A DNA stretch of 64,000 nt from positions 186,001 through 250,000 of the forward strand of contig JAHBVU010000005.1 of the NCBI GenBank assembly GCA_019637315.1, in the 5' to 3' direction. Made by a program: the position numbers and the translations under genes. The notes beneath the pieces were generated by a model. That model saw only the letters and a list, made by a program, of their open reading frames with translations. It was not told the DNA's origin and ran no database searches. Position 1 is the stretch's first letter. The number at the start of each line of letters is the position of its first letter. Positions 1,428 through 6,733 of the stretch are shown piece after piece. The stretch is from Gemmatimonadales bacterium. GTDB taxonomy: Bacteria > Gemmatimonadota > Gemmatimonadetes > Gemmatimonadales > GWC2-71-9.

Positions 1428-1466
1428 GCTCGGCGGTCGCTGCCTTCCAGGCAACGACCGCCGAGC
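1428..1466. terminator. Bidirectional hairpin between convergent genes
   Basis: A 12-bp perfect stem (1428-1439 with 1455-1466), extended by four further pairs (TGCC/GGCA) after one mismatch and closed by a 5-base loop. It sits between the thiolase stop (1381) and the stop of the minus-strand amidohydrolase (1473), so it can end transcription from both sides. No long T-tract. Confidence 0.65.
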
Positions 1467-1472
1467 AGTTGG

Positions 1473-2696
1473 CTAGAAACAGCGCTCGCTGACCACCGCG
1501 CCGTCGATCACCACGCCGCACACGCGGGTGTTGTACTCGAACGGATCGCCGTCGAAGAGCACCACGTCGCCGTCCTTCCCGGTCTCGAGCGATCCGACCC
1601 GCTTGTCGATGCCCAGGATCCGAGCCGCGCCGAGCGTGACCGTGCCGAGGGCCTCCTGGAACGAGAGCCCGAAGCGCGCGGCAATCGCCGCTTCGAACAG
1701 CACCACCCGCGTCTTCGGCACATAGCCTTCGAAGCCGCTCTGCAGAGCAACCGGAATGCCGGCATCCCGCAGCAGCTTGGCCGTTTCGAAGGTGGCGTTC
1801 TGCAGAGTGCCACCGTGCCGGGCCATGGTCGGATGCGTGATGACCGGGACGCCAGCCGCCTTGAGCTCTTCGATCACCAGATACGACTCGGCGGCGCCAT
1901 CGAGCACCAGCGGGAAGCCGAACTCCTTCTGGAGGCGGAGCGCCGAGAGAATCTCACTGACCCGGTTGGCGGTGATGAGCGCCTTGACCTTGCCCTCCAG
2001 CAGGTCGGCCAGGATCTCGAGCTTGAGGTCGCGGGTAATCGGCTTGTCGGCCGTGGCACCGCGGCGGTTGCGGCTGTACTCCTGCGCCCGGATCAGCTCG
2101 GTGCGCACCAGGGACATGCCCTTGCTGCGTGTGCCCGGCCGGCCCGCGAAGTTCTGACCCACCTCCGGTCCCAACGTCATCGCAACCATCGTGACCGAGT
2201 CGACCAGCGCCTCGCTGACGTTCCGACCCCGGGTTTTGACGATCATCGTCTGACCGCTCATCAGCGCGCCGGGGCCGTGACCGGTGTGGATCGTGGTAAC
2301 GCCCAGATCACGGACATACTCGACCAGCGCTTCTTCGGCATTGTACGCGTCGAAGGCGCGCAGCTCGGGCTGAATCGCGTTGCTGCGATCGAGCTGGTCC
2401 TGATCGTGAGGCTGATTCAGATAGCCGGCCAGGCCGATCACCGTGTGGGCATCGATCAGCCCCGGCGTCACGACTTTGGCGGTCAGGGTACGGTAGCCGC
2501 TCGGGATCGAGACGCTGCCGGCCGGTCCGACCCGTTCGATCTTACCGTTGCGGCCGATCAGCACCACGCCATTGCTGATGGCGGCGCCGGCCATGGTGTG
2601 GACGGTTTCGCCGCGAACGGCCACCTGGGCGTGCGCAGCAGGAGCACCGACGCTCAGGGCGCCGAATGTGGCGAGGCCAAGAAGACAGGTACGCAT
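1473..2696 (-). CDS. Secreted amidohydrolase-fold protein lacking metal ligands
   Basis: 407 residues with a Sec signal peptide (cleavage near AHAQ, residue 24), so periplasmic or extracellular. The fold matches the imidazolonepropionase-like (COG1228) amidohydrolases and its closest visible relative is the next gene upstream on this strand. The usual HxH metal motif after PGLIDAH is broken: His84 is followed by Thr-Val where the second His should be. The later ligand positions are also replaced: TAN at 242-244 where the paralogue has HTH, LDG at 265-267 for LQH, and SGF at 320-322 for the TDD segment. It is probably catalytically dead, or works without metal, perhaps as a partner subunit of its neighbour. 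Its ATG shares a base with the neighbour's TGA (TGATG at 2694-2698), indicating translational coupling. Confidence 0.85.
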   Translation of the reverse strand: MRTCLLGLATFGALSVGAPAAHAQVAVRGETVHTMAGAAISNGVVLIGRNGKIERVGPAGSVSIPSGYRTLTAKVVTPGLIDAHTVIGLAGYLNQPHDQDQLDRSNAIQPELRAFDAYNAEEALVEYVRDLGVTTIHTGHGPGALMSGQTMIVKTRGRNVSEALVDSVTMVAMTLGPEVGQNFAGRPGTRSKGMSLVRTELIRAQEYSRNRRGATADKPITRDLKLEILADLLEGKVKALITANRVSEILSALRLQKEFGFPLVLDGAAESYLVIEELKAAGVPVITHPTMARHGGTLQNATFETAKLLRDAGIPVALQSGFEGYVPKTRVVLFEAAIAARFGLSFQEALGTVTLGAARILGIDKRVGSLETGKDGDVVLFDGDPFEYNTRVCGVVIDGAVVSERCF

Positions 2697-4003
2697 CAGT
2701 CGTGGTCCTCGTCGTGATGGAGGAAGATTCCCTCGGAACTGGAACCACGGCCGCCATAGGCAAAGACGCGATCCTTGGGGTCGGACAGGTCAAACACCTT
2801 TTCGCCCAGGACCCAGGTCTGCTCCACATGCGTGTAGACCGACAGCGGGTCGCCGGACAGGATGATGAAATCCGCATCCTTGCCCCGTTCGAGGCTACCG
2901 ATCCGCTTGTCGAGGTCCATCATCACGGCGCCCGCCAGCGTCAGCGCATGGAGCGCCTTGGCGCGCGACATCCCGGCGCGGACGGCGAGCCCGCCCGAGC
3001 GCAGGAAGAAGCGCGAATCGGTGATGCCGTCGTCGGTATGGAAGCCCACCAGGCCGCCGGCACTGTCGATCGCAAACGGGGTCCGGAGGCTCAGGCCGAC
3101 GGCTTCGAGCTTGCCGCCCGGCGCGTCGATCATGATCACCGACGACGCAACCTTCGCCTCGGCGATTTCCTTGGCAACCTTCCAGCCCTCGCTGACGTGC
3201 TGCAGCACGACCCGGAAGCCGAACTCCTGCTTCAGGCGCAGCACCGTCAGGATGTCGTCATGCCGATGGGTGTGGAAGTGCACCATCCGGCGTCCGTCGA
3301 GCACTTCGCTCAGGGTTTCGAGCTCGAGGTCGCGCCGCGGCAGCTTGGTCGAATCGGTGCCGGCGGCGCGGATTTTGGCCCGATACTCCTGCGCAGCGAT
3401 GAACTTCGCCCGTACCATCGCAGCGGCCTTGGCGCGGGTGCCAGGCGCGGGCGGAGTGCCGCGGGGGTTGGTGCCGTTGGCCATCTTGAGGCCGCCGCAG
3501 ATCTCCTTCAGCACGTCGTTGCAGTAGAGCAGGTCGGTGATGATCCGGCCCTGCTTGAGCTTGATGTAGGCCGTTTGTCCGCTCGAGAGGAGTCCGGAGC
3601 CGGGCATCACGTTGACGGTGGTCAGCCCGCCCGCCCGAGCTCGCTGGAAGCCGGGATCCTGCGCGTTCATGGCGTCGATGATCCGCACGTCGGGATGGAT
3701 GCTCGACGAGCGATCGCCGCCGTCACCACCACCGAGGTGCGAATGCGTGTCGACCAGGCCGGGCATGATCACTTTGCCGGTCGCGTCGATGACCTCCGCG
3801 CCGGACGGAATGGTCACCGAGCCGGCCGCGCCGACCGCCGTGATTCGGCCGCCCTGGACGACCAGGACGCCGTTCGGAATCTCCGGACCGGCAATGGGAA
3901 TGATGTGGGCGCCTCGGAATGCTCTGGGGCGGTCCTGGGCGTCGAGCGTCCCGAGACCGAACACGGTCGCGAGAGCCAGCACGCTTGCAAGGGATCGGAT
4001 CAT
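2696..4003 (-). CDS. Secreted metal-dependent amidohydrolase (imidazolonepropionase-like)
   Basis: 435 residues, signal peptide ending near LDAQ (residue 23). Hydrolyses an amide or peptide-like bond outside the cytoplasm; substrate unknown. The metal ligands are all visible: His87 and His89 in DTHSH, a His cluster HFHTH at 244-246, His269 in LQH, and Asp324/325 in HTDDG. The C-terminus carries an unusual acidic/His tail (HHDEDHD) that could bind metal. AGGACA just upstream of ATG 4003 is a plausible ribosome site. First gene of a two-gene operon with the degenerate paralogue, and divergent from the S58 peptidase gene. Confidence 0.9.
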   Translation of the reverse strand: MIRSLASVLALATVFGLGTLDAQDRPRAFRGAHIIPIAGPEIPNGVLVVQGGRITAVGAAGSVTIPSGAEVIDATGKVIMPGLVDTHSHLGGGDGGDRSSSIHPDVRIIDAMNAQDPGFQRARAGGLTTVNVMPGSGLLSSGQTAYIKLKQGRIITDLLYCNDVLKEICGGLKMANGTNPRGTPPAPGTRAKAAAMVRAKFIAAQEYRAKIRAAGTDSTKLPRRDLELETLSEVLDGRRMVHFHTHRHDDILTVLRLKQEFGFRVVLQHVSEGWKVAKEIAEAKVASSVIMIDAPGGKLEAVGLSLRTPFAIDSAGGLVGFHTDDGITDSRFFLRSGGLAVRAGMSRAKALHALTLAGAVMMDLDKRIGSLERGKDADFIILSGDPLSVYTHVEQTWVLGEKVFDLSDPKDRVFAYGGRGSSSEGIFLHHDEDHD

Positions 4004-4201: not shown

Positions 4202-5452
4202 ATGCTGTTTCTCGCCCTCCGGCGTGTCCTGCCGGGTCTGGCTGCTGTACTGCTGCTGTCGACCTCCGCCTGGGCCCAGCCCGGGGTTCGCGCCCGCGAT
4301 CTCGGCGTGGCGCTCCCGGGAACGCCGGGGCCGCTCAATGCCATCACCGATGTTGCGGGAGTTGCCGTCGGACACACCACTATCATCGAAGGCGCCGGCA
4401 AGCTGGTCCGCGGACAGGGCCCGATCCGCACCGGTGTCACGGCCATCCTGCCCCGAGGCCAGGCAGGCCCGGACAGCACCTTTGCCTCCTGGTATCGCCT
4501 CAACGGCAACGGCGAGATGACCGGCGTGGCGTGGCTCGAAGAGTCGGGCATCCTCGACACGCCAGTGCTGATCACCAACACCCACAGTGTCGGCGTGGCG
4601 CGGGACGCGGCCATCGAATGGATGCTGGGACACCGCCCCGGCTTCTCGTTCGCGCTGCCCGTGGTGGCCGAAACCGCCGACGGCCTGCTCAACGACATGA
4701 ACGGCTTTCATGTGCAGCGGTCGCATGTGCTCGGTGCGCTCGACGCGGCGCGACCTGGACCGGTGGCCGAGGGGAATGTTGGCGGCGGCACGGGAATGAT
4801 CTGTCACGGTTTCAAGGCCGGTATCGGCACCTCCTCACGGGTGATTCAGGTGGCCGGTGGTCGTTACACGCTCGGTGTGCTGACCCAGTGCAACTACGGC
4901 GCTCGGCCCCGGTTCCGGGTCGATGGCGTGCCGGTGGGTGAGGCGATTCCCAATTCGGAAGTCGGGATCTGCCTCACGGTGAAACCCGAGGCAACCACGA
5001 GGTTCGCAGGTGGCCGCTTTCCCGAGTGCGGACCTGGCGGCTCGACCAAGCCGGGACTGCCAGGGCCGCTCGATGACGGGGCGGGTTCGATCATCGTCGT
5101 GGTGGCAACCGACGCGCCGCTCCTGCCGCACCAGCTCCAGCGCCTGACTCGGCGGGTGGCGCTGGCGGTCGGGCGGATGGGCGGCCTCGGTGAGAACTCC
5201 TCAGGCGACATCTTCCTGGCTTTCTCGACCGCCAACCGTTCCATCGGCCGCGGCGATTCGGTGGTCGCTCTGGCAATGGTGCCGAACGCGCTGATGAACC
5301 CGCTCTTCGAGGCCACGGTGCAGGCAACGGAGGAGTCGATCCTGAACGCGATGGTCGCGGCGGAGACCATGGTAGGTGCGGACGGCGTGCGGGTGCCGGA
5401 ATTGCCGCATGATCGGCTGCGGGAGATCATGGCGGCGGCTCGGCGTCGCTAA
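4202..5452 (+). CDS. P1 (S58, DmpA-type) aminopeptidase, secreted
   Basis: 416 residues. A signal peptide (residues 1-25, ending AWAQ) places it outside the cytoplasm. S58 enzymes are made as one chain and cut themselves in front of a Ser/Thr/Cys nucleophile; the expected site is visible as DDGAG before Ser296-IIVVVATDAP. Other family segments are the GNVGGGTGM loop (191-199) and ITNTHSVG (124-131). DmpA relatives release N-terminal D- or L-amino acids, so the role is probably scavenging of peptides; exact specificity is not readable. GGAG lies 6-9 bases before ATG 4202. Divergent from the amidohydrolase operon across about 200 bp. Confidence 0.92.
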   Translation: MLFLALRRVLPGLAAVLLLSTSAWAQPGVRARDLGVALPGTPGPLNAITDVAGVAVGHTTIIEGAGKLVRGQGPIRTGVTAILPRGQAGPDSTFASWYRLNGNGEMTGVAWLEESGILDTPVLITNTHSVGVARDAAIEWMLGHRPGFSFALPVVAETADGLLNDMNGFHVQRSHVLGALDAARPGPVAEGNVGGGTGMICHGFKAGIGTSSRVIQVAGGRYTLGVLTQCNYGARPRFRVDGVPVGEAIPNSEVGICLTVKPEATTRFAGGRFPECGPGGSTKPGLPGPLDDGAGSIIVVVATDAPLLPHQLQRLTRRVALAVGRMGGLGENSSGDIFLAFSTANRSIGRGDSVVALAMVPNALMNPLFEATVQATEESILNAMVAAETMVGADGVRVPELPHDRLREIMAAARRR

Positions 5453-5488: not shown

Positions 5489-6055
5489 TCAGGTGTCGGG
5501 CCAAACCTCGCGGAAGTACGCCGGCAGGTCGATCAGTAACGGCGGAATCGAAGGATCGGCGTGCCAGGTGAGCATATCGTCGACGATGGCGGGTTTGCGA
5601 TCGGCGGGCGTCCAGACCTCGACCAGGCGGGCGTCGAAGTCGACGATCCAGTAGGCGGGCACGCCGGATCGCTGATACAGCCGCCGCTTGGTGACCCGGT
5701 CGTGCCGAGCCGTGCTCGGAGAGAGCACCTCCGCCACCAGGAGCGGCACGCCCCACTCGTTCCACTCGACCGGGGCGCGGCCTTCGATCGCCGCGCCGAC
5801 GAACAGGTCGGGCTGGAGCAGCTGGCCGGCGCGCAGGTCCAAGTCGGCCGGAGCGGTGCCGGCGCGGCCGATGCCGTGTTCTCGAACGTAGGCCTTGATC
5901 AGGTCGTAGAGCGTCCAGACGGCGAGCTGGTGACGACCGCTTGGGCTCGGGGTCACGACCAGTTCGCCGTCGACCAGCTCGTAGCGGTTGCCGTCGTCGG
6001 GGAGGCCCAAGACGTTGTCCCGGGTCCACAGGCTGACCAGATCGGGCATGCCCAT
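5489..6055 (-). CDS. Uma2 family (DUF820) putative restriction endonuclease
   Basis: 188 residues from the chosen start MGMPDLVSLW (ATG 6055), which matches where Uma2 proteins begin; an in-frame extension to 6202 lacks family similarity. Core PD-(D/E)XK elements: Asp in LQPDLFVG, Glu in LLVAEVLSPST, then a basic helix and WIVD. Uma2 genes are common, often multicopy, and rarely have a known job; nuclease activity is family knowledge only. No partner methylase is nearby. Convergent with the S58 peptidase, 36 bp apart. Confidence 0.85.
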   Translation of the reverse strand: MGMPDLVSLWTRDNVLGLPDDGNRYELVDGELVVTPSPSGRHQLAVWTLYDLIKAYVREHGIGRAGTAPADLDLRAGQLLQPDLFVGAAIEGRAPVEWNEWGVPLLVAEVLSPSTARHDRVTKRRLYQRSGVPAYWIVDFDARLVEVWTPADRKPAIVDDMLTWHADPSIPPLLIDLPAYFREVWPDT

Positions 6056-6194
6056 ACGGTACGCTCGGCGGGGGGTGGATAGCAAGGAAACGGCATGCCC
6101 GAGGATAGGGGCCGTCGGCGTACGAGCGGTAACCCAATCAACGCAGTTGATTGCTGCGACATCGCGGCCGAAAGGGGTGCTACGATAATCCGGG

Positions 6195-6231
6195 TCGGGC
6201 ACGCGACCTTCGGCCCCCGCGTGGTGCCCGA
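6195..6231. terminator. Possible hairpin after the redoxin operon
   Basis: 8-bp stem TCGGGCAC (6195-6202) with GTGCCCGA (6224-6231) around a 21-base loop that contains a smaller GCG/CGC pairing. It lies just past the redoxin stop (6239, minus strand). No T-tract; weak candidate. The rest of the 6056-6238 gap shows nothing recognisable. Confidence 0.35.
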
Positions 6232-6238
6232 TTCCCGC

Positions 6239-6733
6239 CTAGCTCCCCGGCGCTTCCGCCGCCAGGCGCATGATCTCAGCGCCCGCCACCAGATCGTCGA
6301 GCCGCCCGAAATGCTGCAATCGCAGCCGGCCGGCGCGATCGATCAGGATCAGGGTTGGCGTGCCCTGCATTCTGTACCGCTGCATGGTCGCGGGTATCGG
6401 CTGGCCAGGCACGGGCAGGTCGACCCCGACGGGGTGCGTGATGCGGTACTCGTGAAGAAAGGCCTGCAGCGACACCGGCTGCATGGCCGCGTGATGCTCG
6501 AAGACTGTGTGGAGGCCGATCACTGCCACGCCTTCGTTGGAAAAAATTCGGTGGATCCGCTCGGCCTGTGGAATGCCGTGACTGACGCATCCCGGACAGA
6601 GCATTTGGAAGGCATGCACCACGACGACCTTGCCGCGGAGGGCGGCAAGGTCGAGCGCGATCGGCGTGTTGAACCACTGGCTCACCTGCCAGTCTGGCGC
6701 GGTTGCGTCAGGCGGAATCGACACGGACAGCAT
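6239..6733 (-). CDS. TlpA/AhpC-like redoxin domain protein
   Basis: 164 residues, thioredoxin fold. The redox pair is Cys-Pro-Gly-Cys in FQMLCPGCVSHG, and the cis-proline loop is GTPT near residue 131. No signal peptide, so cytoplasmic. Start set at ATG 6733, which follows the upstream gene's TGA by one base; longer versions run into the upstream gene in another frame. Co-transcribed with the small thioredoxin-like gene and probably controlled by the divergent MarR regulator. It may reduce peroxide or protein disulfides; the exact substrate cannot be assigned. Confidence 0.85.
   Translation of the reverse strand: MLSVSIPPDATAPDWQVSQWFNTPIALDLAALRGKVVVVHAFQMLCPGCVSHGIPQAERIHRIFSNEGVAVIGLHTVFEHHAAMQPVSLQAFLHEYRITHPVGVDLPVPGQPIPATMQRYRMQGTPTLILIDRAGRLRLQHFGRLDDLVAGAEIMRLAAEAPGS

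Follow-up and report, generated by a model that had tools for sequence, protein, structure and literature searches.

Two adjacent genes on the minus strand of the window (the whole stretch of 64,000 nucleotides from a Gemmatimonadales bacterium that was analysed) encode an amidohydrolase with a complete metal-ligand set and a degenerate paralogue of it, and in all probability the second gene codes for a functional partner subunit rather than being in decay. Many bacteria have such a pair of genes, in which the copy without the metal site is preserved as faithfully as the enzyme. Gene 2 is likely to contribute a subunit without catalytic function to an exported, heteromeric amidohydrolase that it would form together with gene 1; in this reading we infer physical assembly, a 1:1 make-up, export, the substrate, and any influence on activity.

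Gene 1 (2696-4003; product P0001, 435 aa, predicted to be exported) and gene 2 (1473-2696; product P0002, 407 aa) have the same strand and overlap by one base, in agreement with a preliminary description that had placed two amidohydrolase-fold genes in one operon at these positions; the features located below within the two genes all lie on the minus strand. Pfam families PF01979 and PF07969 matched gene 1 with 63.5 and 50.7 bits and gene 2 with 47.4 and 45.7 bits, all of which exceed the gathering cut-offs of these families (29.7 and 25). Among the NCBIfam equivalogs listed, none with a curated cut-off was approached by either gene, including Xaa-Pro dipeptidase (NF051886, cut-off 500; 74.1 for gene 1 and 52.6 for gene 2) and imidazolonepropionase (TIGR01224, cut-off 298; 56.1 and 48.4). 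The gene 1 stop and the gene 2 start share the sequence TGATG (2694-2698), which likely results in translational coupling, and in relatives the stop of gene 1 and a candidate start of gene 2 share 4 bases in 42 of 79 loci and 1 base in 13 (together 55/79). Judging by sequence, both products start with a signal-peptide-like N-terminus (about residues 1-22 of gene 1, 3938-4003, and about residues 1-24 of gene 2, 2625-2696). Such an N-terminus was detected in all 80 gene-2 orthologues, and a hydrophobic one in 72 of the 77 gene-1 orthologues tested, the other five being cut by the contig or the frame.

Directly 3' of gene 2, before the convergent thiolase gene, a hairpin with a perfect 18-pair stem and a 3-base loop was found (1428-1466, minus strand; z-score -4.6). 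It is a probable terminator despite the absence of a T-run, and is likely shared by gene 2 and the thiolase gene, although a promoter and terminator consensus scan reported no site. On the other side, gene 1 has a divergent neighbour encoding an S58-family peptidase with a signal-peptide-like start (4202-5452), which is not conserved as a neighbour in relatives. A Uma2-family protein (putative restriction-endonuclease fold) is encoded at 5489-6202 on the minus strand.

The metal positions were set by alignment with PDB 3ooq and by the superfamily pattern. In gene 1 they correspond to H87 and H89 (H87-S-H89, the HxH ligands of beta-1; 3737-3745), K173 (the presumably carboxylated beta-4 Lys; 3485-3487), H244 (beta-5; 3272-3274, also placed by sister-lineage catalytic domains), H269 (beta-6; 3197-3199), and the beta-8 Asp D324 (3032-3034). 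All six positions are occupied in gene 1 and in 3ooq, but only one of six in gene 2, in which H84-T-V86 (2439-2447) retains the first His of HxH and not the second. In the same alignment, A172 (2181-2183) stands opposite the Lys position, T242 (1971-1973) opposite the beta-5 His, and G267 (1896-1898) opposite the beta-6 His. In the MAFFT alignment, E323 (1728-1730) lies opposite the beta-8 Asp with a two-residue insertion between; because this Glu is invariant in 80 of 80 orthologues and aligned with D324, it may be a conservative replacement for the beta-8 carboxylate, which would then not simply have been lost. The motifs quoted in the preliminary description are real (HSH, HTH, LQH, and TDD in gene 1; HTV, TAN, LDG, and SGF in gene 2), but its list of ligands did not include the Lys of beta-4 (K173 of gene 1, opposite Ala in gene 2), and its statement that gene 2 had lost every ligand is correct for five of the six positions and not for H84.

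A scan of contigs identified 382 relatives of gene 2, and the following counts rest on the best 80 of these 382, which represent 11 named phyla (78 of the 80 were assigned and two were without assignment). Fifty of the 80 gene-2 orthologues keep one of the six ligand positions, 30 keep none, and no orthologue keeps more than one; the column of H84, which corresponds to gene 1 H87, is occupied by His in 50 orthologues and by Arg in the other 30. The gene-1 side is quite different: among 80 gene-1 rows from 79 loci, 74 are complete (6/6) and six are incomplete by gaps only, each ligand residue present being of the kept type with no substitution in any row. It had been proposed that an alignment across homologous pairs would reveal whether the loss is conserved, and that an intact second gene in relatives would indicate recent decay; the loss was found in 80 of 80 gene-2 orthologues, and as none of them keeps more than one of six positions, it is old and fixed. 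In 79 of the 80 gene-2 loci, a gene-1 orthologue precedes gene 2 in the same orientation, and the only exception (L079) starts near a contig edge; a few records (e.g., L040, L074, and L085) have a truncated or interrupted gene-1 frame. Gene 2 is under purifying selection about as strong as that on gene 1, as dN/dS in the 14 closest pairs ranges from 0.020 to 0.160 for gene 2 and from 0.014 to 0.105 for gene 1, and the mean pairwise identity over 71 loci is 0.607 vs 0.630. The absence of five of six ligand positions would be expected if gene 2 were a recent duplicate in decay, but ligand loss, open frames, and low dN/dS are common to orthologues of 11 named phyla, which leaves this explanation practically no probability; chance or recent decay of gene 2 is thus ruled out by its relatives.

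The co-occurrence of the two genes was also investigated in an independent sample of 116 genomes from the order to which G200, the Rhodohalobacter genome with locus L041, belongs. Of these genomes, 90 have gene 1, 89 have gene 2, and 88 have both. The genomes with gene 1 only (G322 and G256) have their matches at a contig end, and the one with gene 2 only (G324) has its match at a contig start. According to the match listings, both genes are located on one contig in 84 genomes and on separate contigs in G238, G255, and G306. When four genomes with a single match and G322 were searched again, two adjoining matches were found in G302, G303, and G313, and one at a contig edge in G312 and G322. 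These counts include G270 in both the gene-1 and the gene-2 set, despite the single chimeric gene it possesses (L140, 2929-4275), the N-terminal half of which is gene-1-like and the C-terminal half gene-2-like. The chimera has HSH and a KMANGTN stretch in its N half, where the ligands are kept, and DGAAEDYL and YVPKTR in its C half, where the ligands are absent. It gives the impression that recombination has merged the pair into one gene. As only this single chimeric gene is present, the pair is dispensable in G270, which counts against an obligate heteromer. In addition, linkage and co-occurrence are compatible with two non-touching proteins of one pathway.

Similar arrangements exist elsewhere in the genome and in the phylum. 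The genome of the window (G000) has three tandem catalytic/degenerate pairs with the catalytic gene upstream in each, the two further pairs being located at C3:110841-113314 and C2:148967-151386. Among 200 Gemmatimonadota genomes, 172 have a match to each gene at E 1e-20; window-type orthologues are rare in this phylum, with full-length, high-identity versions in G000, G191, and G116 and fragments in G179 and G087. Forty stretches were retrieved, and 37 loci from these, a non-random set picked from high-scoring matches, entered the analysis (the remaining three are the window-type pairs L130 and L131 and a 10-base placeholder, L135). Each of the 37 loci has exactly one domain with 6/6 positions, plus one or two degenerate domains, and, judged by these ligand residues, a catalytic-plus-degenerate set is a general arrangement. 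In 13 of the 37 (T type; L120-L129, L132, L137, and L138), a degenerate domain is fused N-terminally to the catalytic domain in an open frame of about 1000-1400 codons, which is followed by a second, separate degenerate gene, giving one catalytic to two degenerate domains. A truncated second catalytic C-terminal half was observed in L136 (G158, 5900-6613), between a full catalytic gene and a degenerate gene. The T-type and own-C2-type loci, which were compared with a thinned set of 20 gene-1 and 20 gene-2 loci, also help to place the beta-5 ligand: 27 catalytic domains (14 of the own-C2 type and 13 of the T type) have His in the first place of this motif and Tyr in the second, so that the first His of HTH, H244, is most likely the ligand in gene 1.

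Phylogenetic analyses bear on the origin of the degenerate domains. A 134-row quick tree with the ligand columns removed contains a branch with SH-aLRT 92, to one side of which lie all 60 catalytic domains together with 3ooq, and the same grouping was recovered in a 55-row tree with support of 89; the fragment L136_D2 was left out of both trees. An old split between catalytic and degenerate domains would follow from this grouping; however, the approximately unbiased (AU) test leaves a separate origin possible for the own-C3 type, since joining its catalytic and degenerate domains gave p 0.544 and a tree 1.40 log units better. Joining gene 1 and gene 2 was narrowly unrejected (p 0.056). Degeneracy may thus have arisen once or repeatedly.

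The fold of gene 2 appears to be intact, as had been proposed before. Its AF2 model (45 rows) has a mean pLDDT of 84.0 and a pTM of 0.84, and this predicted structure matches 3ooq with Z 48.5 (rmsd 1.9 over 372 residues), the next entry having Z 26.6. The conservation that is specific to gene 2 is concentrated around the mouth of the barrel: 25 of 36 gene-2-specific conserved sites are in mouth loops, which comprise 112 of the 381 mature residues, compared with 7 of the 40 sites whose conservation is common to the two genes and 17 of 38 mapped gene-1-specific sites. The corresponding p-values (1.9e-7 and 6e-6) are only a guide, as the loop limits were drawn after the conservation had been seen. 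Two loops stand out. The loop after beta-1 (residues 84-122; 2331-2447), delimited by conservation and the model, has the gene-2-specific conserved residues N94, D98, Q99, Q101, Q109, and E122, and the loop after beta-8 (residues 319-332, QSGFEGYVPKTRVV; 1701-1742), delimited by conservation, has Q319, E323, Y325, P327, K328, and R330. When gene 2 is modelled by itself, residues 91-110 have pLDDT below 50; like residues 324-327, they are conserved yet of low model confidence, and our guess is that such loops might become ordered only by a partner or ligand. The best reading of this conservation pattern is that the former active-site mouth of gene 2 is under a constraint of its own. As support for the heteromer, the enrichment is weakened both by the post hoc loop limits and by the presence of gene-1-specific sites in the same loops.

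It is possible that gene 2 is itself an enzyme with a rebuilt active site, in which beta-2 H137 and H140, beta-7 H288, D98, E323, and mostly H84 would build a new centre, for metal binding or acid-base chemistry, on the side of the barrel made up of beta-7/8/1/2. These residues are nearly invariant (H137 in 75, H140 in 78, H288 in 79, D98 in 78, and E323 in 80 of 80 gene-2 orthologues), and the His residues are absent from gene 1, where the H137 column has Asn (77 rows, with 3 gaps), the H140 column has Pro or Ser, and H288 falls opposite a gap. By the secondary structure of the gene-2 model, H137, H288, and E323 are predicted at strand ends, and the gene-2-specific conservation in the mouth loops points in the same direction. 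On the other hand, H84 is replaced by Arg in 30 of 80 orthologues, and the losses of H137 (5), H140 (2), and H288 (1) occurred in different loci, whereas a metal site would predict joint loss. This explanation by itself also leaves the strict pairing with gene 1 unexplained, and we consider it unlikely. A related but broader idea is that a widespread, undescribed exported amidohydrolase always works as a set in which a single catalytic domain is accompanied by one or two paralogous domains without the metal, encoded separately or partly fused, and that in the window type the metal-less chain has a rebuilt, conserved polar centre (D98, Q99, Q101, H137, H140, H288, Q319, E323, and K328) at its barrel mouth which directly recognises or processes the substrate, so that two unlike pockets would be needed; this proposal is unlikely.

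Gene 2 could also be an exported substrate-binding or delivery protein that serves gene 1 without a stable complex. The conserved former pocket, the signal-peptide-like N-terminus in 80 of 80 orthologues, and the linkage to gene 1 would all be consistent with such a function, which is nevertheless very unlikely: in the T lineage a degenerate and a catalytic domain are fused, which favours a stable arrangement, and in the listed recurring clusters, the families of which are unannotated, no transporter or receptor family was seen to recur next to the pair. Besides the pair, no family recurs in more than 10 of the 80 loci, many of which are short-flanked, and the largest neighbour clusters are, by strand and position, antisense or out-of-frame readings of the pair itself. 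The neighbourhood thus gave no hint of the substrate.

A non-catalytic role such as that of a heteromer subunit, which had been suggested for gene 2 from the window, is supported by the fixed ligand loss, purifying selection, co-occurrence with the partner, and natural fusion in a sister lineage. Two features of a heteromer-type arrangement, a fixed loss of ligands and a conserved catalytic partner gene, were found here. According to the proposed model, gene 1 and gene 2 would encode one exported hydrolytic unit, in which gene 1 would be the catalytic amidohydrolase with a binuclear metal site (HxH/K/H/H/D, from alignment). Gene 2 would have arisen by duplication within the 3ooq-like family and lost the metal site, making ordinary amidohydrolase chemistry impossible, and would have been retained as an obligate partner, replacing one copy of a formerly homo-oligomeric enzyme to give a heteromer with gene 1. 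Its former active-site mouth might now contact the partner, or hold and orient the substrate, and gene 2 might in this way shape or stabilise the catalytic subunit or its substrate. An AF2 model of read-through gene 1-gene 2 pairs, in which both genes are in one frame and translated through the stop, was based on seven rows only and gave a mean pLDDT of 59.6 and a pTM of 0.44, values too low for the model to be of use. By fold, the closest characterised relatives belong to the dipeptidases, carboxypeptidases, and ochratoxin-type amidohydrolases, so that a small exported activity that cleaves peptides or amides would be a sensible starting assumption.

Among proteins of known structure, 3ooq from Thermotoga maritima is the best sequence match of both genes (191.9 bits for gene 1 and 157.1 bits for gene 2) as well as the best fold match of gene 2, and it differs from gene 2 in having all six ligands, as gene 1 does. 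A full-text literature search by the names of 3ooq found no paper. In animals, CRMP (dihydropyrimidinase-related proteins) have an amidohydrolase fold without a metal site and form oligomers, which resembles what is proposed for gene 2; unlike gene 2, they are not known to be paired in an operon with the active enzyme. The aspartate transcarbamoylase of Pseudomonas aeruginosa contains an inactive dihydroorotase-like chain (pDHO) on which its catalytic partner depends within a stoichiometric complex (PMC7053772), and this provides a precedent for an inactive amidohydrolase-fold chain required by its partner. As described there, the partner of pDHO is a transcarbamoylase of another fold in a cytoplasmic dodecamer, whereas the two chains considered here are paralogous and both export-like. 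MetalloBSH of Bilophila wadsworthia is a related, secreted metal-dependent amidohydrolase with the ligands two His, Lys, His, His, and Asp, each of which abolished activity when changed singly to Ala (six changes; PMC13081902). It is thus similar in being secreted and in its ligand set, but is an active enzyme, unlike gene 2; the words heterodimer, inactive, and oligomer are absent from the text examined (PMC13081902). A full-text search of the literature, with subscription papers mostly outside its reach, revealed no report of amidohydrolases of this type that are inactive, arranged in tandem, or paired. Inactive amidohydrolase-fold partners are known in kind; the paralogous catalytic/inactive pair of this family, which this search did not find, may be new.

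As automatic annotation names such genes "amidohydrolase" (the name on four of six plasmid matches), many supposed enzymes may in fact be subunits. Should the two products form an obligate heteromer, single-gene expression for function assignment in this family would fail. The repeated occurrence of the arrangement, as three pairs in the genome of this organism and in fused form in a sister lineage, would offer a tractable system for understanding why enzymes keep dead paralogues as partners.
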